A DNA stretch of 50,778 bases from Candidatus Zixiibacteriota bacterium (GTDB taxonomy: Bacteria; Zixibacteria; MSB-5A5; JAABVY01; JAHJOQ01), in the NCBI GenBank assembly GCA_018820315.1, contig JAHJOQ010000155.1:1-50778 (forward strand), read 5' to 3'. Both the position numbers and the translations under genes were made by a program. Positions 12,581-38,191 of the stretch are shown one piece after another (the stretch's first letter is position 1; every line of letters starts with the position of its first letter). The notes under the pieces are model-generated. The model was given only the letters and a program-made list of their open reading frames with translations. It was not told the origin of the DNA and did no database searches.

Positions 12581-13989
12581 GCTCTGCCTTCTTTCGCGGC
12601 AGGGCTGTGACTATCGTAATGATGAGGATCAGCCTGAGGCAGTACGCCTTTCACTTCCGCCATAGCAATCATAGGCAGTACCCTGATGAACAAAAGGAAT
12701 AGTGTCAGAAACAGACCGAATGATCCAATGAATATTCCGATGTCGAATATCGTCGGGGAGAAATAATCCCAGCTCGATGGAAGGAAATCATTTGCCAATG
12801 AGCTGACGACAATTACGAATCTCTCGAACCACATGCCGATATTTACAAAGATCGAGCAGATGAATAGTATCACCGTGCTTTGGCGGACTTTCTTGAACCA
12901 GAATAGCTGCGGCACGATCACATTGCATGAAATCATGATCCAGTAACCCCATGCGTACGGTCCGAATGCTCGATTCATGAAAGCGAACTGCTCATATACG
13001 TTACCGCTATACCACGCGATGAAAAACTCGCAACTGTATGCATATCCGACCATCATGGCAGTGACCAGCATGATCTTTGCCATTTTGTCGAGATGGCTCA
13101 TTGTTATGAAGTCCTTGAGTCCGAATAGTCTTCTTGCCGGGATTGCCAGACTCATCACCATCGCGAAGCCGGAGTAAATCGCACCTGCCACGAAGTATGG
13201 CGGGAATATCGTCGTATGCCAGCCGGGCAGAATGCTTGTAGCGAAGTCTGTGCTGACTACGCTGTGCACCGACAACACTAACGGCGTGGAGAGTCCTGCA
13301 AGGAGAAGGTATGAGAGTTCGTAATGTTTCCACTGGCGATTGCCACCACGCCAGCCAAGCGAAAAGATTCCAAATATGAGTTTGCGCAATTTCTTCTTGG
13401 CGCGGTCCCGAAATGATGCAAGGTCAGGCACGAGTCCGACATACCAGAACAGAGCCGAGACTGTGAAGTAAGTGCTAACCGCGAAAACGTCCCAGATGAG
13501 CGGGCTGCGGAAATTAGGCCATATCGACATCTGATTCGGAAACGGCATCATCCAGTATGCCACCCATACGCGGCCTACGTGAATGCCGGGGAATATCAGC
13601 GCACAGATAACGGCAAAGATCGTCATCGCTTCGGCAAAGCGGTTGATCGAAGTTCTCCAGCGCTGCCTGAAGAGGAACAGTATGGCGGAGATGAGCGTAC
13701 CCGCGTGACCGATACCGACCCAGAAGACGAAATTGACAATCGCCCAGCCCCATGCAACCGGAACCTGCAATCCCCAGATGCCGATGCCTTCAGAGATCAG
13801 ATAGCCGATCAGGCCGAAGAAGATGAGCATGACGGATGTCGTCGCGCCGAATACCAGGAACCACCACGGCGGAGTCTTCGCCTCGGCGATTCGGCTGATA
13901 CGATCGGTCACAGAGTGGAACGTCTGGTTGCCTGCAATCAGAGGTGGTTCCGGCACGCTGTGAAACTCTCTTTCGCTCATAGATGTCAT
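12577..13989 (-). CDS. actC: Alternative complex III membrane subunit ActC (NrfD/PsrC-like)
   Basis: The 470-residue protein has about ten helices. Recognisable motifs are [60 protein letters not shown] and [20 protein letters not shown], all typical of ActC. The protein binds menaquinol near the periplasmic iron-sulphur subunit ActB and may take part in proton translocation. The gene overlaps actB and actD by 4 bases each, so translation is tightly coupled. Confidence 0.94.
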
Positions 13990-16976
13990 GTGATTTTCTT
14001 CTGTGCCTTCTTCAACTCAGGATTCGGATTTCCAAGTTTCGCCAGATACGATGTCCTTGGCCGCGTGTTAAACTCGGCCAGGACTTCGTAATTTCGATCC
14101 AGCTTCTTAAGTCTTGCCACTTCGCTTTTGGAATCTCGTATATCACCGAATTTTATTGCATCAGCCGGGCACGCCTGCTGGCAGGCCGTTCTTATCTCGC
14201 CGTCACCGACATTGCGGCCATCTTTCTTCGCTTTGAATTTCGCAGAGTTTATCCTTTGAACACAGAACGTGCATTTTTCCATTACTCCGCGCGAACGGAC
14301 TGTAACATCAGGGTTTTGCGCCATCTTAATAGTATCAGCCAGGTTGTTTGTATAGTTGAAAAAATTGAAACGCCGCACTTTGTAAGGGCAGTTATTCGAA
14401 CAGTAGCGCGTTCCTATGCAGCGATTATAGACCATCACATTCAGACCTTCACGGTCATGCACAGTTGCGTTGACCGGGCAGACCGTTTCGCACGGTGCCA
14501 TCTCGCAGTGCTGGCACGCCACCGGCTGGTGAACCATTTCAGGTGACTTGACTTCGCCGGTGTAATATCGATCGACTCTGATCCAGTGCATCTCTCGCCC
14601 GTTTCTCACCTGCTCCTTGCCGACCAGCGCGATGTTGTTCTCACTCTGGCAAGCGATGGTGCATGCTCCGCAGCCGATGCATGCATTTAGGTCTATTGTC
14701 ATGCCCCACTGATAACCTTTGTCGTATTTGTGATCATCCCAGAGTGATTCGAGAGGCGGATGTTCGACCATCTCCCGGGCAAACTCCGGATCAATCCTGT
14801 ACTCGGTCAGCGTGCTTTCTCGCACTATTGGACGGCCTTCCATGCTGCCGTGATCCTGAGTATTCGCAAGCCCCAGCTTTCTACCTGTCTTGAATATGCT
14901 CGCTCCGCCTACGAACCAGAGTCTGTTTCTGGTTCTGAGTCGATAGGCGTTTGATCCAACATTGTTGGCAACTCCACCGGCGGAAGTTCGTCCGAAACCG
15001 AGTTCGAGGACGATTGACTTGTCCGCGACTCCCGGCACGATCCAAACGGGAAGATCAACTTGGCGGCCATCGACCGAAAGCGTGATAATATCCTCGTTTG
15101 CGACGGCGAATTCGCGCGCGCTCAACTCACTCATGACCGCGGCGTTGTCCCATGAAAGCTTTGTGATCGGATCGGGAAGTTCCTGCAGCCAACCGTTGTT
15201 TGCGAACCGGCCATCATGAACCGACGGCGAGATTTTGAATGCAATTTCTATGGTTGAATCAGATTTCGATTTTTCGAATGGCTCTCTACTCAGCAGGCTG
15301 GCAACGTTTTGTTTTATGACTCTAGCGTCTAAGTCGTTTGAAGCATCAGTCTTGATTACGCCGTCATGCAGCGCCCTGCGCCACTTCTTCTCGAATCCAG
15401 CGCCCGTCCAGATTTCCTGCCAGGTTTGCCGAACGATATCGTAGCCTCTCGCATCGATTCCTGTGGCGAGAAGCATCATCATCTCTGCACTGCTGTGCGC
15501 GCCGAATAACGGCTCGATCATGGGCTGAATGAGGCTCCGGGTGCCGTCGATTGCTGTCGCGTCACCCCAGCTTTCGAGATAATGACTCTGCGGAATGTGC
15601 CACTCGGACAATTGTGCAGTCTCATCTGCGTGAATGCCGAAATGAATCGTGTGCTGCAACTGTTTGAGAGCACCCGCAAAATCTGCATCTGCCGGAGCAT
15701 TATATATCGGATTGCAGCCGAGCACCACAAGTGACTTGATTTTGCCGGACCGCATCTTGTCAACCAGATCGCTAAACTGCCTGTTTGATGGTAAGGATGT
15801 GTATGTCTGCTGAACCAACTCTATCGCGTTGTCGACATTGCCCAGCACATCGTTTATCAGAAGTATGAGTGCATGTACAGATGCCGGCTGGCGACGTCCG
15901 GCGATAACGAGCGATTTACCTCTGGCGGCAATTAAGTCCTTTGCGACAGCAGCAAGCCATTCAGTATCGAAAGCATGCGTTCTGTATGCGCTCAGGGCAT
16001 CACCTATTTCGATTGCAAGTCCCTGCGATTGCATTTCGAGTGCAAGCGCTGCCGTAAACGCACCTACCTGACTGCTCCTGAGACGCAATCTATGATCGGC
16101 CATTGCGCCTGTGAGAGAATAGTCGCTCTCGACGCAATAGAGGCGATTCATGGAATCATTCACCGACTCGACTCTGCGCCCCTCGGCAAATCCGGTTGCA
16201 TTTCGGATGTTGTCTGTCTCGGTGAGCAGAAAATCAGAATCGAGCGATAGAATTGTCTCAGCATTTTCAAATTTGTAAACGGGGTAGAGGGACTCGCCGG
16301 TTGCTACTTTCACACCCTCATGTATATTCTCATCGCTGGCCGGTTCATACGATACCCATTCCGCATTCGGGAACCTATCGGTAAACTGCTTTTTCAGGCG
16401 CGCAAGTGTAGGCGAGGCGAACGATTCTGACAGCACGGCGAGGCCGTTGCCACCATTAGCGTCATAAGACAAATGCAGACTGCGCCAGTACGATACGAAA
16501 TCTTCCCACGATTTCTCGTTACCATTCTGAGTCACTCGCTTCGATCTATCCGGATCATAGAGACCCAGTATAGAAGCCTGCATGATGGCGTTTGACCTTC
16601 CCCGAGTCGACGGATGATCGGGATTACCTTCAATCTTGGTTGGACGTCCCTCGTTGCATTCGACCAGTAGTCCATAAGCTGCAGTGCCGAGTGGCATCGT
16701 AGTCGCATAAGTATTCGGAACACCGGGGACAATTTCTTCGGGTTGAGTAACATACGGAATAATCTTCTCAACCGGCCTGCGGCAACCTGCAACGCCCGCA
16801 AGAGCTATCGACGCACCCATCAGGGTCAGGAACTTGCGGCGAGACAGCCCCGGTATGTTGTCGTCAACAACAGAGGGGAATTCTGCTTCAAGGAATTCCT
16901 TGAACTTCGGCGTCTGCGCGAGTTGATCAAGGCTACGCCAATAGTCACGGCCAAATATCTTCAGATCATCTTTCAT
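13986..16976 (-). CDS. actB: Alternative complex III iron-sulphur/molybdopterin-like subunit ActB
   Basis: The 996-residue protein has a twin-arginine signal ([17 protein letters not shown], residues 45-61). It is a fusion of a molybdopterin oxidoreductase-like region (about 70-730) that in this family lacks the cofactor, and a ferredoxin-like region. Cysteine clusters are [12 protein letters not shown] (about residue 765), [23 protein letters not shown] and CTFCVQR with CQQACP (about 900-930), consistent with three 4Fe-4S and one 3Fe-4S clusters. It carries electrons from quinol to ActA. The start overlaps the actA stop by 4 bases. Confidence 0.95.
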
Positions 16977-17620
16977 CTATGACACGCTGAGCAGTCGACC
17001 GGTGGATCGATGCCCTTCTCCTGCTTGACTCTCATCGCGAAATCCGCCTGATCCGACGGCGGAGTCCATTTCATATTAGTGATCTCGCTCGCAGGGCGGA
17101 GGTGCATATCGGGATTGCGGTGGCATTCGAGGCACCATCCCATACTGAGAGGCTGTTTCTGCTGAACGACTTCCATTGCAGCGACATTTCCGTGGCAGCT
17201 CTGGCAGCCGACACCTGCGTTCAGATGAACGCTGTGATCGAAATAGACGTAATCGGGAAGCTTGTGCACTCGAATCCATTCGATCGGTTTGCCGGAAGCC
17301 CAGCTTTCGCGGACTGCGAGCAGCTTCTCGTTTTCGGTCCCAATCAGTTTATGGCAATTCATGCACGTCTGGGTCGGTGGAATATTCGCCATCGGCGATT
17401 TTTCGACTGTGCTGTGGCAGTAGCGGCAATCGAGACCGAGATCTCCGGCATGCAGTTTATGGCTGTAGTCAATCGGCTGCTTTGGGCGATAGCCGACATC
17501 GGTATATTTCGGAGAGAAATAGTACTACACAAACGATACAACGACCACTATCAGGATCGGAACAGCGATGGCCGCGATTGTCGGCAGCTTGTTTGTCCAT
17601 TTCGGAAACAGTTGAGCCAT
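16973..17620 (-). CDS. actA: Alternative complex III pentahaem cytochrome ActA, interrupted by an in-frame TAG
   Basis: From ATG 17620 the frame reads MAQLFPKWTNKLPTIAAIAV and a membrane anchor ending VSFV. Codon 32 (17527-17525) is TAG, and the frame then continues YYFSPKYTDVGYRPKQPIDY. In the homologues I recall, a Trp (TGG) stands at this place, so a single G-to-A change explains the stop. After it all five haem motifs follow: CRYCH (65-69), CMNCH (86-90), CQSCH (139-143), CLECH (163-167) and CSACH (210-214), ending in a 4-base overlap with actB. No ATG, GTG or TTG lies between the TAG and codon 77. Reinitiation there (17392) would lose the anchor and the first haem site. Readthrough, suppression, a real mutation or a sequence error are all possible. 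Confidence 0.88.
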
Positions 17621-30065: not shown

Positions 30066-33056
30066 CTAAGTCTGGCCGGTGAGCTTTCTGAGTCTTTGTC
30101 TCGTGTCTGCTATCTCTTTTATCTCAATCTCCGGACTTCCCCAATACTTGAGCACCTCTTTGTAGGCGGCAATTGCATCTGCAGTATTTCCCAACCCCTC
30201 GTCTGCGACACCGGTATAGTAGAGCGCAAGCAAATATTCGAAGCCATCAGTCGCTTCGTATACGCCGGACAGGATCTCCTGAAGGACTTCCTTCCCTTTC
30301 TGATACTGTCCGCTCGCAACCAGAACAATCCCCAGTTCTCTAAGATTGCTGGTACTCTTCTGATTGGATTGATTCATCATATTCTCGAAGCCCTGTATCA
30401 AAGCGTTCGTATCCGCAGCGGCTCTCGCATTGAAAATCATCTCGAAATTGTCGGTGATGTCCCACATTTCCGACGGCAGCCTCTTCTTGAATTCCTCAAC
30501 TGCCGATTTCATTAGCTCACGCGCCTCTTTCTCATATGTCGGATCGATCTCTATCAGCAACATTGGATAATTAAGCGTCGAGAAATTCGATGCCCATTTG
30601 GCGGCTATCTTGCCGTAGAAGAGTGCACTGTCAGGCATCTCAAACAGAAGATATCGTGAAGCAATAGTCGCATATCGTCCCCTGACCTGCGTACTATCGC
30701 CGGTTGCCTCCGCTGAACGAGCCGCCTCGAACAATTCACTCGTGCCGGTTTGGAACTTCCCTGTCCAGAAAGCGACATTTGCCAATATCCTATGGTATCG
30801 GATTCTCAAGAAGATATCGTCAGGATCAACTTCTGTGAGCTTCTCGGCATACTGCCGCGCCATCTCGAAATCACGCTTAAGAACGCTCAATGTCGCGAGT
30901 CTACCGATTGCATCCGTGCTCTCCGGGAATTTTTCCAGCATCTCCCGGGTAATCTCCTCAGCTTCATCGTATCTTGCGTTGGCGAGGTACATCGATGACA
31001 GGTCATTATATGGCGTCGGTGATTCAGGATTCGCTTCTTTCGCACGAACGGTGTACTCGATGGCTTTCTCGTAATCCTCTCTACTCTGGTATATAGTTGC
31101 GTAAAACGAGAGTGCCAGATAGTAGTGCGGATCGAGCATCATAACTGTGTCGAGTTGAGCTAACGCCGCGTCGGAATCTCTCTGGAGAACATTGAGCATC
31201 AAAGCATAGTAGCCTCTAGTCTCTTTGTCATCCGGATAATTCTCCAAATACGCCTTTGTTTTGATAAGGGCATCATCGAAGTTCGATCTCAGCCAGATGT
31301 CGGTGTAAATGTCAAGCAGACTGCGTTCTTTTACCGGGAGTTTGCTTGCGAAGCGAGATGCCGCATTATAATAGGTGGCCGCCTGTTGATTCCGTCCCTG
31401 AAATGTGTAGGACATTCCGAGACGCATGTATGGCAGTGCGAAAGTAGAATCTATCTCAATAGCCTTTTCGAATTCAGCAATTGCCTTATCGAAATCGAGG
31501 GCGAAATCCTGCATCCCCAATATATAGTGCTTATATGCTTCCGGTGATGATGAAGTAATGTCAGCAACCTGAGTCTTCTCGGACATCATGTCGCTGATGT
31601 TTAGCGACAGCGCAATCTTCTGCGTCAAGCTATCAACCAGCACGATGGGATTTTGGCCTACCACTTTTTCACCGAGTATGATCTTGCCTGACTCGAGATC
31701 CTCCAGGCGCGCATCAATTCTCAACATATCGCCGAGTTTGTAAACTGAACCGGAGAGTACTCTTGTGGCACCGAGTGATCTTGCGGCATCTACACACGCC
31801 TGATGACTCGGCATACCTCCCTGAGACTTGGCTGCATCGCCAAGGCAGTCCAGGACTCTGCTTTGGCTGATCAGATTTATCGATCTGCTCTCTGCAAGGT
31901 CAGTCAATAGTATCTCCGGAAGTCCGGAAGTGAGCCAGTCAAGCTCCGAATCACCCGTCTTGTTCTCGAATCCGAAAATGGCAAGAGCATTCTCCTGAGC
32001 CTGCAAGCCTGTTGGCTTATTGGATCCGCTGAAATAGCTCATCGCTGCCGCAATAAGCACCACAAGCACAACAACAACTGATCCGGCCTGAATCCAGCCG
32101 CGACGGGCAAACCGTCCCTTAGACGGTTTCGCTGCATCTGTGACAATCGACGATGTATCCGATATTCCACTTTCATATTGTTTGCGGAGGCTGCGCAGAT
32201 CTATGACAAGATCCCGCGTGTCCTGATAGCGATCGTTTGGACTTTTCTGCAGGCATTTCTCGATGATTCTCTCAAGTTCAGACGGAAGAGACTCGTTTAA
32301 TTGTCTGACCGGAGCCTGCTTCGATTCGAGGATTTTCGCGAGCACCGAGACCCTGTCCGGGGCATCGAACGGGAATACTCCCGTGAACATCTTGTACATC
32401 ATCGTCCCGAACGAGAATATATCGGATCGTGAGTCGACCGTCTCGCCCCGCGCCTGCTCCGGCGACATATATGTGATCGTTCCGAGAATTTTGCCTTCCT
32501 GGGTTAATTCTTTGGATACTGTATCGGTGTCCGATGATCCTTCTCCAGCAAAGCTGGAGGCAGTTGGTTTGGCGAGGCCAAAATCGAGAATTTTCGGCTC
32601 TCCCTCTTCATCGATTCGGATATTGTCGGTCTTGATATCTCGATGCACGATTCCGAGCTTGTGGGCCGCGGCAAGCCCCGATGCAATTTTCTCTCCAACT
32701 CGCAAAAGGTCTTTGAGATTGGGATTCTTGTCACGCAGGTAATCAGTAAGAGACTCGCCTCGTATATACTCCATCACGATGAAGCTGAGTTCGCGTCCTG
32801 TCTTCTCGTCCTTTTCCGATCCGATATCATAGATGGACATGACATTCGAGTGAGAGACTTTTGCCGCCGTTCGCGCTTCTCTGTTGAGCCGCTCCAGCCT
32901 GTCGGGACTGTCGAAATACTCCGGCTGCAGAAGCTTGAGCGCCACATTTCTGCCCAGTTTCTGATCCTCTACAAGATAGACCTCGCCCATCCCGCCTTCG
33001 CCGATCTTGCGCAGGACCTTGAAGCGCGAAAACTGCTGACTAGATTCCAGTATCAT
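30066..33056 (-). CDS. Ser/Thr protein kinase with TolB-like and TPR extracytoplasmic region
   Basis: The 996-residue protein has a Hanks-type kinase domain (about 12-285): glycine loop GEGGMGEVY, VALK Lys41, HRDIKTDN with Asp140 and DFG Asp158. A membrane helix follows (about 325-345, AGSVVVVLVVLIAAAMSYF). Beyond it lies a TolB/FlgO-like domain (LAIFGFENKTGDSELDWLTS to about 490), then about ten TPRs (for example FEKAIEIDSTFALPYMRLGM). This layout is common among Acidobacteria and FCB kinases. It probably signals by phosphorylating proteins in response to envelope inputs. It overlaps the upstream phosphatase by 4 bases, a classic kinase-phosphatase pair. Confidence 0.9.
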   Translation of the reverse strand: MILESSQQFSRFKVLRKIGEGGMGEVYLVEDQKLGRNVALKLLQPEYFDSPDRLERLNREARTAAKVSHSNVMSIYDIGSEKDEKTGRELSFIVMEYIRGESLTDYLRDKNPNLKDLLRVGEKIASGLAAAHKLGIVHRDIKTDNIRIDEEGEPKILDFGLAKPTASSFAGEGSSDTDTVSKELTQEGKILGTITYMSPEQARGETVDSRSDIFSFGTMMYKMFTGVFPFDAPDRVSVLAKILESKQAPVRQLNESLPSELERIIEKCLQKSPNDRYQDTRDLVIDLRSLRKQYESGISDTSSIVTDAAKPSKGRFARRGWIQAGSVVVVLVVLIAAAMSYFSGSNKPTGLQAQENALAIFGFENKTGDSELDWLTSGLPEILLTDLAESRSINLISQSRVLDCLGDAAKSQGGMPSHQACVDAARSLGATRVLSGSVYKLGDMLRIDARLEDLESGKIILGEKVVGQNPIVLVDSLTQKIALSLNISDMMSEKTQVADITSSSPEAYKHYILGMQDFALDFDKAIAEFEKAIEIDSTFALPYMRLGMSYTFQGRNQQAATYYNAASRFASKLPVKERSLLDIYTDIWLRSNFDDALIKTKAYLENYPDDKETRGYYALMLNVLQRDSDAALAQLDTVMMLDPHYYLALSFYATIYQSREDYEKAIEYTVRAKEANPESPTPYNDLSSMYLANARYDEAEEITREMLEKFPESTDAIGRLATLSVLKRDFEMARQYAEKLTEVDPDDIFLRIRYHRILANVAFWTGKFQTGTSELFEAARSAEATGDSTQVRGRYATIASRYLLFEMPDSALFYGKIAAKWASNFSTLNYPMLLIEIDPTYEKEARELMKSAVEEFKKRLPSEMWDITDNFEMIFNARAAADTNALIQGFENMMNQSNQKSTSNLRELGIVLVASGQYQKGKEVLQEILSGVYEATDGFEYLLALYYTGVADEGLGNTADAIAAYKEVLKYWGSPEIEIKEIADTRQRLRKLTGQT

Positions 33057-34753
33057 TCTATGACTCTCTTGATAATCATCATCGTTATATCATCGGATCT
33101 CGGAGCATCCCCAATGAATTCCAGTACGTCATGCATTAGACAGTCGACGACTTCAGCAGGCTTCATTCCTCGTGACTCCACGAGGAGCTTTTCCATTCTT
33201 TCGTCGCCGTATTGATCTTCCTCTGCATCCGGTTCGTCGCTGCCGGTGGTGGCAGCGCGTTGGGCCTCGGTGACACCATCGGAGAAGATAAAAAGAATAT
33301 CGTCATCTGACAATTCAATTCGTTCTTCTTTCCATTCACTGAAATCGAACGCCCCGATCATGTGGCCAGTCGGATCAAGGTGCTCGATGCCGCCGTCTTT
33401 CCTAACAACGACCGGCGGATTGTGACCGGCGTTTACATATCTGATGATATTGTTGCCCGGTTCGGCCAGTCCGATAAACAACGTAGCGAATTCTCCGGTC
33501 CTGCTGAAATGATTTATCTGGAGCGATACTTTCCTAACGGCGCGGCTGAGATCGAATTCGTCTGATTCATAGAGGATCCTGAACGATGCGAGTATGTTCG
33601 ACATCAGGAGTGCAGCGCCCAGCCCTTTGCCGCTGACATCTGCAACCAGAAAAAGAAGCCTGCTGTCGGGAAGGACTCGCATGTCGTAGAGATCACCGCC
33701 GACCGCGCGTGACTGCTCCTGAAATGCGCGCAGAGTGTACCCCGCGAATTCGGGCGGGGTGTCGACCAGAAGTCCTTTCTGAATAGCTGAAGCCCGACGT
33801 AGCTCAGCCTCGATCACTTGCTTTTCCTGCCGCTCCGCGAGAAGTTCGTAGTTTAGAAGCCGCGATGCTATAATATTGCCAAATGTGGCGAGCACTCGCA
33901 GATGCTCGTCGTTGTAACTCTGTAATGGGCTTGTGGTGTCGACATACAGTATTCCGAGCACCCTGCCTTCATCGAACAGTGGTACAGCAACCGCCGATTT
34001 CATCTCCGACATTATGATCGATTTCTGTTCGGCGAATCTCGGATCACTCATAGGATCACCGATCAGGATCGCATTCTTATTTGTGATTATTTCTTTAACA
34101 ATCGTCCTCGACAATGTGAACTCGCCCGGGTCTCGCCCCCCCGGCAGGATTGTTGCAACAGTATACACCTCTTCCTGATCCTCTGACACGAATAGGATCG
34201 CAAGTCTCTGCGCGGGAATAACTTTTGATATCAGTTCGAGCGACCGCTGCAGCATCACTTCCTTCGGTTCCGGCAGAACCAGCATCTTTGCCATATCGAA
34301 GAGAGTCGGCAGAAGGTCTGGCAGCTCCGAACTCTTCCTGGGGAGCGGCTTAAGCGCCTCATTTATCGAAAGGAAAACTGAATTCTTGGGATCGAGATCA
34401 GAGAGCTTGGTCCTGGTGGGACCGGATGGACGGCTCTCCGGCTCATCAGAGTGTGCGAGGCGAAATTCGGTCTGGCCGAACATGATCGCATCGCCCTCCT
34501 TAACCTCTCTGCAGGAATCGAGCCGTTCGCCGTTGACGAGTGTACCGTTGTGACTACCGAGATCTGTGATGTAGTATTTGCTTCCGTCGGCATTTGCCTC
34601 AATCTCGGCATGTTTGCGCGAAACGGTCTTTTCCTGAATCGTGAATTCGCACGAGGATTGTCCAGCACCGGTCTCACGACCGATGAGATGTTTCCCGGGT
34701 GTAATTTTCCAGGAATAGAATCGTTTACCGTCTGTACCAACCAGTTTCAACAT
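33053..34753 (-). CDS. FHA-GAF-PP2C (SpoIIE-type) phosphatase
   Basis: The 566-residue protein combines three domains. An FHA domain (about 22-100; LIGRETGAG, VSRKHAEI, DLGSHNGTLVNG) binds phosphothreonine. A GAF domain follows (about 165-310; AILFVSEDQEEVYTVATILP, GILYVDTTSPLQ). The SpoIIE-type PP2C phosphatase (about 345-566) has VGGDLYDM, LVADVSGKGLGAALLMSNIL and ILFIFSDGVTEAQ, which carry the metal-binding Asp residues. The FHA domain would dock it to the phosphorylated kinase encoded in the overlapping gene downstream. SpoIIE-type phosphatases often act in sigma-factor partner switching; no anti-sigma gene is seen in this window. Confidence 0.9.
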   Translation of the reverse strand: MLKLVGTDGKRFYSWKITPGKHLIGRETGAGQSSCEFTIQEKTVSRKHAEIEANADGSKYYITDLGSHNGTLVNGERLDSCREVKEGDAIMFGQTEFRLAHSDEPESRPSGPTRTKLSDLDPKNSVFLSINEALKPLPRKSSELPDLLPTLFDMAKMLVLPEPKEVMLQRSLELISKVIPAQRLAILFVSEDQEEVYTVATILPGGRDPGEFTLSRTIVKEIITNKNAILIGDPMSDPRFAEQKSIIMSEMKSAVAVPLFDEGRVLGILYVDTTSPLQSYNDEHLRVLATFGNIIASRLLNYELLAERQEKQVIEAELRRASAIQKGLLVDTPPEFAGYTLRAFQEQSRAVGGDLYDMRVLPDSRLLFLVADVSGKGLGAALLMSNILASFRILYESDEFDLSRAVRKVSLQINHFSRTGEFATLFIGLAEPGNNIIRYVNAGHNPPVVVRKDGGIEHLDPTGHMIGAFDFSEWKEERIELSDDDILFIFSDGVTEAQRAATTGSDEPDAEEDQYGDERMEKLLVESRGMKPAEVVDCLMHDVLEFIGDAPRSDDITMMIIKRVIE

Positions 34754-35114
34754 AGAATACTTTGATCCATTCTAACCATTATTTACGTCTCACAGATAAC
34801 GCAGGTTGCAATCTAGATAGAAACACCCCGATATTGTTCCCATTCCCGGTAAGGCAGACACCACGGTCTACAGTATCCACGGTTGCATACAATAATAGAG
34901 TTTGCAGCCATAGTCAAGAAGGGATTGGGGGAGAGTCAGAATGCCCGGCTCAGAAATAAATCCTGAATGACGTGTAGTAGGCGGCTGTCGGCGGCACATG
35001 TCCGCATGTGCTCTTAACTCTTGTCCGCAAGACAGCCTGCGGGCATGAGTCCTGAGTTTCGAGGTATCCGCCCGCGCAGAGGGCAATCAGATGGCAAAGT
35101 AGGAAGACTGGCTT
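34754..35114. other. Gene-free spacer with short repeats
   Basis: No gene is supported here. It contains the left copy of the 33-bp direct repeat (34948-34980), then an inverted repeat CACATG-TCCG-CATGTG (34995-35010), and a wider imperfect palindrome (GCGGCTGTC at 34981, GACAGCCTGC at 35031), the look of an interspersed repeat element. Confidence 0.5.
34948..34980. repeat. Left copy of a 33-bp direct repeat (att-like)
   Basis: The sequence matches 36912-36944 at 32 of 33 positions (A/T difference at 34959 versus 36923). Read on the minus strand it codes for YYTSFRIYF and the stop, exactly the end of the outer-membrane protein gene at 36914. Upstream of it there is no further similarity to that gene. 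Confidence 0.85.
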
Positions 35115-35261
35115 CTACTTCTTGCTTTTCCCTTTGCGGGGAAGTGGCACTCGTTCGACCACGGTGTGGTCAGGGTCTCTGCGCGCCCGATCAACAGGAA
35201 TGAATCGACCTGATCGTGCATCGCGTCCACGCTGAACACTCTGACGTTGTTTGCTAGCCAT
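35115..35261 (-). CDS. Small basic protein (RDARSGRFIPV type)
   Basis: The 48-residue protein starts at ATG 35261 with AAGGAAT just upstream. It reads MASKQRQSVQRGRDARSGRF and later HTVVERVPLPRKGK. The RDAxxGRF(I/V)PV with TVVERVP pattern recurs in small, widespread orphan proteins often found near toxin-antitoxin or phage genes; function unknown. It is the last gene of the repeat-bounded cassette on the minus strand. Confidence 0.6.
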   Translation of the reverse strand: MASKQRQSVQRGRDARSGRFIPVDRARRDPDHTVVERVPLPRKGKSKK

Positions 35262-35398
35262 TATTCCTTTCCTTTCTCCAATGAATCTATATTGCACATG
35301 GCATAACTTGTCAATCACTTTTGCGCAGAGTTCTTCTCAATCCCTGACCATATGATGATACATGATACTCTATCATCTTAAGGGTCAAAAAAGAGCCA

Positions 35399-35632
35399 TT
35401 ATCTTCTGCGATCCTTCCATTCCTCAACTTCGCTTTTGCTAAGAAGCGTCAGAGTCTTGAATTTGTAAGTAGTTAGCTTCTCTTGATACAGGTAGTTGCG
35501 CAGCGCAGTAGTCTTGACTCCAAGCTCTTGGGATGCCTCATCGACCGTCATAAAGCGGTCAGCATTCACTTTTGTCAAGTATTCTATCTTGCTCACTGGC
35601 AGATGCATAAGTGACAGGTTATCACTTATCAA
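35399..35632 (-). CDS. Excisionase/MerR-like helix-turn-helix protein
   Basis: The 77-residue protein contains RFMTVDEASQELGVKTTALR and ends with KFKTLTLLSKSEVEEWKDRR, the usual HTH_17 layout of excisionase-type proteins. The first frame start is TTG 35632, overlapping the end of the preceding small gene; ATG 35608 is an alternative. Inverted repeats at 35607-35629 cover its own start, which suggests autoregulation. In phages and integrative elements such proteins control excision or act as repressors. No integrase is seen nearby. Confidence 0.65.
   Translation of the reverse strand: MISDNLSLMHLPVSKIEYLTKVNADRFMTVDEASQELGVKTTALRNYLYQEKLTTYKFKTLTLLSKSEVEEWKDRRR
35607..35629. promoter_or_regulatory. 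Inverted repeat over the HTH gene start
   Basis: ATAAGTGA (35607-35614) and TCACTTAT (35622-35629) form a perfect 8-bp inverted repeat separated by 7 bases. A similar TATCAC-type inverted repeat lies upstream of the protease gene (36821-36844), so both could be bound by the HTH protein. Confidence 0.45.
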
Positions 35633-35819
35633 GCCCTTTTTCTTTTTTTCTTATCTGATCAAAAATCGTATGCCTGAAGGGGGGAACGTACTTGTTTCCA
35701 ACTGGTGGCACACCCATCTTCTCTGCTTGATCGACAAGGGACAATGCCTTCTCAACAAGCTCCTTGTCTATAGCAGGATTCTTCTTGAGAATCTCTTTTC
35801 TATCTAACTCGTAGTTCAT
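35622..35819 (-). CDS. Small unknown protein between protease and HTH genes
   Basis: The 65-residue protein begins MNYELDRKEILKKNPAIDKE and contains KALSLVDQAEKMGVPPVGNK then YVPPFRHTIFDQIRKKEKG. It starts 1 base after the stop of the protease gene, and its last codons overlap the HTH gene's TTG start. This indicates one operon. The helical N-terminal half and YVPPF-type end give no known family. It could be an adaptor or a regulator for the protease, by position only. Confidence 0.6.
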   Translation of the reverse strand: MNYELDRKEILKKNPAIDKELVEKALSLVDQAEKMGVPPVGNKYVPPFRHTIFDQIRKKEKGLDK

Positions 35820-35820
35820 C

Positions 35821-36783
35821 TTATTGACCCCACCCGTCGTAACCGTGTCTCGTGTGAATTACCAGACTATGTCTTCTCCTCATCCAGTAATCCTTCAACA
35901 ATCTAAAGTAAGAGCGCGTTCGTTTATTAAGCTCGGAATCTGCCGAAAAATCCTTAATCCTAAGTTCAACAACCTCTTCGAGGGTCTTCTTGGATATTCC
36001 GCGACTGTGGGAATGCCACATTTCTGGGCTGTTTAACCGATCTGCAATATTCTTTGCCGTAAGTTTCTTTCTCTCGTGTGTTACTGTTTCGTTCTTAGTC
36101 TCAGTGACAGTCCAGTTCTTAAACTTATACCGGATGAGCCAATCCTCTATTAGGGACGTGGCTAACTGTTTTTCTTGATCGTAATGGTAGAGCGTGCCTG
36201 GATCAAACTTGTTAAGCATAAAGGCAAGCTCGGCCGACGACAGCTTCCCATCATTAGACAGACCAACAAACTTCTCAAATTCTTTCAGATAGCCGATAGC
36301 TGAAACCATGTTGCCGCCTGGAGAATCAACTTGGGGGTCTATGGGGCCAAGCACAGAATAGTAGTCCATATATATGTCATCACCAGACATTACAAGTACA
36401 GTTCCCGCGGACATGGCGAAGTTAGGAACTAAGAAATTAACTGTCTTGTAGTGATGTCGTAATATGCTGGCAATGCGTTCTACTGGTAGCAAGTAACCAC
36501 CGTTGGTTTCAATAATGAACATTAAGGTCTCTTTCTTGTCCTTGATCCGCTCAATAGCATCTCTAACAAAATCATCAACACTATAAACAAGGCTTCCAGA
36601 GAACCCAAGAACATCCGAGTCTATATGTTCTTCCAGTTGCCGAATCCCTTCAGTCAAGAGATTCTCAATCGCGACATTAGAACTTTCAGGGAATTGTTCG
36701 GACATGCTTCCACCCGCCATTTTTCTTGCCGTTCTCAGTTCAATAGTACTCATTTCGACACCAATGTCAAGCTCAATATGCAT
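35821..36783 (-). CDS. ClpP-like serine protease (serine dehydrogenase proteinase, SDH family)
   Basis: The 320-residue protein (starts at 36783; ATG 36753 and ATG 36705 are alternatives) has the SDH-proteinase fold. SLVYSVDDFVRDAIERIKDK is followed by LMFIIETNGGYLLPVERIAS, then the nucleophile region NFAMSAGTVLVMSGDDIYMD (Ser125) and YYSVLGPIDPQVDSP. This resembles the ClpP/SppA clan with a Ser-Lys type catalytic pair, and members are usually membrane-associated or phage/defence-linked. The C-terminal part is basic (YWMRRRHSLVIHTRHG). It is the first gene of a three-gene operon with a small protein and an HTH protein. Confidence 0.8.
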   Translation of the reverse strand: MHIELDIGVEMSTIELRTARKMAGGSMSEQFPESSNVAIENLLTEGIRQLEEHIDSDVLGFSGSLVYSVDDFVRDAIERIKDKKETLMFIIETNGGYLLPVERIASILRHHYKTVNFLVPNFAMSAGTVLVMSGDDIYMDYYSVLGPIDPQVDSPGGNMVSAIGYLKEFEKFVGLSNDGKLSSAELAFMLNKFDPGTLYHYDQEKQLATSLIEDWLIRYKFKNWTVTETKNETVTHERKKLTAKNIADRLNSPEMWHSHSRGISKKTLEEVVELRIKDFSADSELNKRTRSYFRLLKDYWMRRRHSLVIHTRHGYDGWGQ

Positions 36784-36820
36784 TATGACGTATCACTCAA
36801 AGAAATACGAAAGTTATAAT

Positions 36821-36844
36821 CTATCACTTTTGTCACCGTGATAG
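36821..36844. promoter_or_regulatory. Inverted repeat upstream of the protease gene
   Basis: CTATCAC (36821-36827) and GTGATAG (36838-36844) form a perfect 7-bp inverted repeat, 40-60 bases before the protease gene start. Another ATCACTTTTG copy occurs at 35314-35323. It looks like an operator. A -10-like TATAAC lies at 36818-36813 on the minus strand. Confidence 0.4.
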
Positions 36845-36911
36845 TAACACCACTGGATCGGTAGAGTTTCCGGTATTCTTAAACTCATTCAATGCCAACC
36901 ATTTGCAGGCA

Positions 36912-36944
36912 GCTCAGAAATATATCCTGAATGACGTGTAGTAG
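36912..36944. repeat. Right copy of the 33-bp direct repeat, 3' end of the outer-membrane protein gene
   Basis: This copy is the genuine end of the outer-membrane protein gene (stop codon at 36914). With the copy at 34948 it bounds about 1.96 kb of accessory genes. Direct repeats that restore a gene's 3' end are typical of site-specific integration. Confidence 0.85.
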
Positions 36945-38191
36945 ATGTCCGGGTAGCTGCCGAATTCAGAACCTATTGATACCGATATGTCGGGGTGGAC
37001 TTCACTGACCCTCAGCTTTGGCCCTCTGCCAAGGCCGGTGAACGCGCCAGCCGCTATATAGATGTTATTAGAAATGTTATATTCGATGGATGGAGCAACC
37101 AGCACCGATGGGTCTGTTGCATTGATGAGCGCCTGACCGCTGAGAGTCACCAGCGGTGTCAGTTGGTATGCAAAGCCGGGGGAAAGGTAGTGGCAGCCAA
37201 GTAGATAGACCGCACCATCGGTATAGGCGGTCGTCGAAAACTTTCCGATGTATTTATCCTGATCGGTTGTGCCAGCCTGGTTGAAGTGATATTCGATAAA
37301 GCCATAGAGACCGCTCGCGAAACTGTAGTCGAGCCCTGCCGAGCCGCGAAAATACGACTCTCCGGATATAATCCCGGAATCGCCGAGCGCATTCGCGAAA
37401 ACATAAGCGCCCTCCGCCCAGAATCCCGCTCCTCCGATTGAACGCGCTATGTTGAGTCCTGCCATTAGGTTTTCGCGGAAGCCGACCATCATGATCGATA
37501 CATCCGTGCGGCCTGCATAGAATTTGCCTCGTGCGAAAAACGCGCTCTGGTCAAATTTGAAATCATCTCCGAAGACATAACCCGCATCGATTTCGCCCAT
37601 AAATCCGAGCGGATAACGGAGGCGGATGGCGTCGACACCGACACGATCTTCCGTATCCAGCTCGTTATATGTGTATGGTGCGATTACATCGGTCGGATTG
37701 ACCGCGCGAGCCGATCCCCATGCGATAGCCTGCCTGCCGACATAAAGATCGAACTGCGATGCCCGAATTGTGACAAACATGCGATCGAGGTTTTGCGACA
37801 GCGCGAAACTCTCGGCATCGTCGATATTTCTGGGATAGAGTCTATCCTCAAGATCGATTGCGCGGTAACTGAACGGGTTGATCTGCGCTATAGTGATGGC
37901 AGATGTGAACAGCCTTTTGTCTTGCACTTTGCCGGAGAGGTCATATTCGGTGTTCAGAGCGAATTTCTCCGATATTCGCCATCGCGCCTTCATCCGAAGG
38001 CGATTGCTTACCGACCCGAGCAGCGGTTCATCCGGTCGGAATCCGGGACCGGTGAAAGCTGGGAAATCGAGGATGGTAGAGAAGTTTTTTGCGTATCCAT
38101 TAATACTCAGATTATCGGTTGCCACCGCATCGACGAACGTCGCGGCCAAGATCGCATTGACGAGAAGTATCGCTTTGAAGCGAATCATCAT
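36914..38191 (-). CDS. Outer-membrane beta-barrel protein of the export operon
   Basis: The 425-residue protein has a signal peptide (FKAILLVNAILAATFVDAVA). Beta-barrel strands follow, such as RLRMKARWRISEKFALNTEY, MFVTIRASQFDLYVGRQAIA and AGFWAEGAYVFANALGD, and it ends YYTSFRIYF with terminal Phe. The motif VGRQAIAWGSARAVNPTDV is typical of DUF1302-like outer-membrane proteins found beside LolA/MMPL or MacB-type exporters. It overlaps the ATPase stop by 4 bases. It probably forms the outer-membrane part of the exporter, but the substrate is unknown. Confidence 0.78.
   Translation of the reverse strand: MMIRFKAILLVNAILAATFVDAVATDNLSINGYAKNFSTILDFPAFTGPGFRPDEPLLGSVSNRLRMKARWRISEKFALNTEYDLSGKVQDKRLFTSAITIAQINPFSYRAIDLEDRLYPRNIDDAESFALSQNLDRMFVTIRASQFDLYVGRQAIAWGSARAVNPTDVIAPYTYNELDTEDRVGVDAIRLRYPLGFMGEIDAGYVFGDDFKFDQSAFFARGKFYAGRTDVSIMMVGFRENLMAGLNIARSIGGAGFWAEGAYVFANALGDSGIISGESYFRGSAGLDYSFASGLYGFIEYHFNQAGTTDQDKYIGKFSTTAYTDGAVYLLGCHYLSPGFAYQLTPLVTLSGQALINATDPSVLVAPSIEYNISNNIYIAAGAFTGLGRGPKLRVSEVHPDISVSIGSEFGSYPDIYYTSFRIYF

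Follow-up and report, generated by a model that had tools for sequence, protein, structure and literature searches.

A protease cassette between two copies of the end of an outer-membrane protein gene in a Zixibacteria genome

How did a foreign-looking block come to lie between two copies of the end of the same gene? The gene encodes an outer-membrane beta-barrel protein (OMP; 36914–38191, minus strand, 425 aa) and is the last of a permease-permease-ATPase-OMP operon in a contig of a Candidatus Zixiibacteriota bacterium, of which we analysed a stretch of 50,778 nucleotides, referred to here as the window. A repeat search of the window returned two 33-nt direct copies with 97% identity and a start-to-start spacing of 1964 bp, both oriented on the minus strand. 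The right copy (copy A, 36912–36944) comprises the last codons of the OMP gene, the stop codon and 2 nt past the stop; the left copy (copy B, 34948–34980; GCTCAGAAATAAATCCTGAATGACGTGTAGTAG), presumed to be the original junction to the downstream region, differs from it by one base (21 exact positions, the mismatch and 11 exact positions). The minus-strand reading, TAC TAC ACG TCA TTC AGG ATA/ATT TAT TTC TGA, gives YYTSFRIYF-stop, the C-terminus of the OMP, and the sole mismatch (ATA/ATT) is synonymous. The two matches in the window compare with 0 expected from window shuffles, and they are the only two in the genome (3.78-Mb assembly in 173 contigs, ≤3 mismatches); the longest exact word shared by random pairs of 2-kb segments was 10–13 bp (500 trials). 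A first-pass annotation of this DNA had reported the 33-bp repeat with one mismatch at the OMP 3' end, and the coordinates, uniqueness, shuffles and synonymous change all agree with it. It had also reasoned that integration would lose its support if copy B were part of a decayed paralogue; this source was rejected, because the sequence upstream of copy B contains nothing OMP-like.

The block between the copies (34981–36911, minus strand) spans 1931 bp and has a GC content of 0.446, compared with 0.503 ± 0.017 in equal-sized stretches elsewhere in the window, only 1 of 448 of which is as low. By part, GC is 0.41–0.44 in the genes for a protease, a 65-aa protein and a helix-turn-helix (HTH) protein, 0.50 and thus host-like in a small basic open reading frame (ORF), and 0.59 in the 134 bp adjoining copy B (34981–35114), a GC-rich segment with small inverted repeats (e.g. 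GCACATGCGGACATGTGC). Family profile searches found no recombinase family in the block, comparison with the genome's own recombinases revealed no integrase remnant above noise, and no integration or transfer genes lie inside, confirming the earlier statement that the interval lacks an integrase. The remaining block sequence had only chance-level matches elsewhere in the genome. Downstream of copy B (30066–34753), a gene for an FHA-GAF-SpoIIE phosphatase overlaps a serine/threonine kinase gene, the two being a probable signalling pair.

The permease-permease-ATPase-OMP operon is conserved within the class, and the first-pass annotation had proposed to look for the OMP gene in related genomes. 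Ten homologues, all from other genera, were found (44–60% identity); each has an intact end with a C-terminal motif of the same type, and none of the ten has the cassette downstream. The OMP gene is missing from the three genomes of the same family that were compared. The cassette protease is patchy in the phylum, occurring in 6 of 133 genomes at E ≤ 1e-20. The best reading of the locus, to which we assign a probability of about 0.85, is that a foreign cassette devoid of a recombinase was inserted here and the OMP gene was preserved.

What does the cassette encode? The protein specified by 35821–36783 (minus strand) was identified from profile matches, alignments and the predicted structure as an SDH-type serine protease of the ClpP fold. 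It matches Pfam PF01972 (3.7e-16; 59.4 bits, gathering cut-off 31.3) and PHROG 11747 (1.4e-46), the latter matched by all 33 aligned members of the family, and scores 72.6 bits, below the 250-bit cut-off, against NF047768. The AlphaFold model, based on an alignment of 33 homologues, has a pLDDT of 90, and Foldseek ranks SppA and ClpP as its best matches, at modest TM-scores; the ClpP/SppA fold together with the Pfam score above gathering places the protein among the SDH-type proteases. Its true start is probably the ATG at 36705 rather than 36783, judging from the family alignment and the low pLDDT before residue 30. The nucleophile is probably Ser125 in an SAGT motif that is invariant across the 33 aligned homologues, a conservation compatible with the proteolytic activity that we infer for the protein. 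Like other SDH-family Clp-fold serine proteinases (PF01972, NF047768, PHROG 11747), the window protein has the SAGT and GPIDPQ core, but its subgroup is distinguished by its own conserved C-terminal half and by a small downstream partner. A promoter-like TTGACA-16-TACTAT (36743–36770, minus strand) precedes the likely start at 36705; this is a consensus match only (10/12), and 5 sites scoring so were found in the region versus 3.9 expected.

The 65-aa partner protein (35622–35819, minus strand) begins one base past the protease stop and is the positional equivalent of the small gene (~56–79 aa) that directly follows the protease in most homologous loci inspected. These partners are variable in sequence, with recurrent position, size and a loose C-terminal motif. 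The next gene (35399–35632, minus strand; probable start ATG 35608) encodes an HTH_17/MerR-like DNA-binding protein. Its HTH_17 domain and similar size recall xis/AlpA-type excisionases, but it scores 28.1 bits against TIGR01764 (excise), just under the 28.8 cut-off, and there is no integrase beside it in the window, so that it lacks both a family match over the cut-off and the linkage to an integrase that would identify an excisionase. The one close relative found, 59% identical, is encoded next to another SDH-type protease in a second genome from the class; the HTH protein thus appears to travel with such proteases, which suggests that it is a partner or regulator of them. The block is completed by a small basic ORF (35115–35318, minus strand; 67 aa, or more likely 48 aa if translated from an internal ATG), for which no match was found in phages. 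The ORFs between the repeats are therefore those first described, with a corrected start for the protease, and the label 'excisionase' holds only weakly, at the family level.

The protease and its small partner are a conserved pair across phyla and are also found in chromosomes as a bare ~1.2-kb insert; none of the compact inserts inspected encodes a recombinase. A parallel to the window comes from a Cloacimonadota genome (L061), where the 27-bp terminator of groEL is present in two perfect copies that enclose the pair immediately downstream of groEL, the second copy overlapping the small gene's stop codon. The corresponding empty site is available from two relatives (G147 and G150), each with a single terminator copy ahead of the same downstream gene; two bases common to both L061 copies differ from both of these relatives. 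A hairpin common to the OMP and groEL targets was considered and rejected, as the folding of the OMP repeat is equalled by 32% of random 33-mers from the window. In Sphingobacterium hungaricum, the pair sits between lipoprotein and gamma-carbonic-anhydrase genes, which are adjacent in dozens of relatives, mostly 20–130 bp apart; this insertion has no significant repeat, the 8-bp repeat present comparing with ~0.65 such matches expected by our estimate. Elsewhere, the pair is flanked on both sides by part of a DegT aminotransferase gene (~110 bp, the copies 89% identical; G388). An alphaproteobacterial MAG (L150) has a second copy of the pair enclosed by two near-identical direct repeats of ~950 bp, each comprising hipB and the beginning of hipA (hipB-hipA'; 13450–14397 and 16277–17224). 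When a bracketing direct repeat is defined by a score of at least 25 within 3.2 kb, one is present at 4 of 18 chromosomal copies of the pair and at 4 of 1006 random stretches (p = 4.5e-6; p = 1.3e-4 without the window, which was chosen for its repeat), the control stretches being drawn from a limited set of loci and not fully independent. Two further repeats were discounted and left out of this count, one recurring several times within its locus (L170) and the other being short and terminator-like (L201). Repeats at the other copies of the pair have no sequence in common and have lengths between 27 and ~950 bp, and around many copies there is no repeat.

By which process, then, was the end of the OMP gene duplicated? 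The first-pass annotation had proposed site-specific integration that preserves the 3' end of the gene. The insertion itself is borne out by the unique repeat, the GC content, the ten cassette-free relatives and the L061 parallel, whereas the agency of an integrase is less well supported: the cassette holds neither an integrase nor a detectable remnant of one, none of the recombinase loci retrieved from the genome carries the site, and repeats of ~110 and ~950 bp bracket the pair elsewhere. A search for recombinases in the genome, likewise proposed at first pass, did recover four tyrosine and four large serine enzymes. Two of the tyrosine recombinases are, by gene context, XerC (adjoining topA and hslV) and XerD; another is a 365-aa phage-type integrase directly beside tRNA-Ser (G000:C121, L056:9216-10313), and the fourth lies on a 4.9-kb contig. 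The 33-bp site was present at none of the fetched recombinase loci and in none of the viral contigs.

In its length and position, the window repeat is typical of tyrosine-recombinase attachment sites in gene 3' ends, where elements of this class typically produce repeats of 8–60 bp (PMC5704250). An element with both repeats and no integrase is defined as a cis-mobilizable element (CIME; PMC5704250), and the window element, with flanking direct repeats, the gene end kept and no integration or transfer genes inside, matches this definition. It resembles CIMEs and decayed IMEs or ICEs in gene 3' ends in that both repeats are kept, the target is preserved and the repeat falls within 8–60 bp, but it contains no recognisable ICE, IME or phage remnant, no autonomous relative sharing its repeat was found, and the same cargo is bracketed elsewhere by quite different repeats. 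The ~110- and ~950-bp repeats are too long for att cores, and a single integrase is disfavoured by the copies' unrelated targets and widely differing repeat lengths. For the window insertion, we put site-specific recombination at roughly even odds.

Insertion driven by homology, without a dedicated recombinase, would duplicate whatever length of homology is present, either through single crossover (Campbell-type) of a circle carrying the pair and a fragment of the target gene, or through homology-facilitated illegitimate recombination of linear DNA. This would account for the differences in sequence and size among the bracketing repeats (27 bp in L061, ~110 bp at 89% identity in DegT, ~950 bp of hipB-hipA') and for the compact inserts inspected, all of which lack a recombinase; moreover, the minimum homology for RecA-dependent recombination is near 27–33 bp, the size of the repeats in L061 and the window. 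Yet these two repeats are short, attachment-site-like and placed exactly on gene ends, and the long-repeat cases may reflect a different process, so that we regard homology-driven insertion as possible but doubtful. Far less probable is sequence-relaxed transposition by an enzyme acting in trans and generating target-site duplications of ~30 bp. The 27- and 33-bp duplications at unrelated targets would agree with it, as would the two bases that both L061 copies share and that differ from both empty-site relatives, as from duplication in place, but the repeat lengths vary, neither terminal inverted repeats nor conserved ends were recognised, and the target-site duplications of well-known transposons are far shorter. 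That there was no insertion at all, the arrangement being ancestral and copy B the relic of a second OMP gene or of a local duplication, is hardly tenable: the compared relatives are all outside the genus and differ in gene order downstream of the OMP gene, but no OMP-like sequence precedes copy B, the block is GC-poor and its protease is patchy across the phylum.

We thus return to the insertion of a foreign cassette as the preferred reading. Insertion of a horizontally acquired, non-autonomous cassette at the OMP 3' end would have duplicated the last 33 bases of the gene and left it intact. Entry would most likely have occurred by site-specific recombination, the cassette being either a decayed, CIME-like integrative element or the substrate of a recombinase supplied in trans. 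Its core would be a two-gene module of the SDH-type ClpP-fold serine protease and the small downstream partner, which probably recognises the substrate or delivers it to the protease; the HTH protein would probably be a regulator or a third component.

The provenance of the pair offers a clue to what such a module may do. In a viral contig collection, 102 stretches encode a relative (80 loci returned), and in the inspected prophages the pair often lies behind a CI-type repressor on the same strand. Peptidase_S24 was confirmed in 10 of 10 upstream neighbours tested, all chosen for their repressor-like look, other loci having other neighbours. The protease occurs in 20 of 5426 E. coli genomes, a chromosomal example reading cI - protease - small protein - N, which is the rexAB slot of lambdoid prophages; an SDH-type protease and a 57-aa protein occupy this slot (L092:7920-8993; L285:3001-4074; these 20 genomes), and three more E. 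coli genomes (H45–H47) match the small partner gene alone. The cI-N region is a known mosaic site of accessory genes such as rexAB and bstA (PMC7067206). Like these lysogenically expressed exclusion genes, the prophage pair immediately follows the CI repressor in the same orientation, but no sequence relation to them is known, and the window copy is chromosomal and has no repressor, so that the slot for lysogenically expressed genes is occupied by its homologues. From this position of the pair, we infer that its most likely job is the exclusion of other phages by proteolysis. PADLOC, which has no model for the pair, gave no match to a known defence family for the 33 members, and our literature search found neither a description of the SDH-type protease pair as a defence system nor experiments on it.

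Homologues of the protease also occur in other settings. On Rhizobium plasmids (L093, L095, L096), the protease follows genes for multiubiquitin, a ThiF-type E1 and DUF6527, an arrangement reminiscent of bacterial ubiquitin-like defence operons. In Absconditabacteria, a homologue (G145:C11:441025-441903; L069/L109) is open only when ten TGA codons are read through, as expected from the recoded TGA of this group.

Taken as a whole, an explanation that combines a horizontally acquired non-autonomous cassette, site-specific entry and a protease module that excludes phages is, in our judgement, slightly favoured. The pair looks like a mobile, still uncharacterised prophage-type module. A more general proposal, that it spreads between chromosomes as a bare, recombinase-less cassette, repeatedly landing at gene ends with target duplication and working as an unrecognised phage-exclusion system, is speculative and, as we see it, unlikely. 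The locus is one of several in which a tiny cassette without a recombinase is bounded by direct repeats derived from its target, and the sequenced empty site in one lineage makes the mechanism of insertion testable. The protease pair also occupies the phage-exclusion slot of prophages, including those of E. coli, where its predicted function would be directly assayable.
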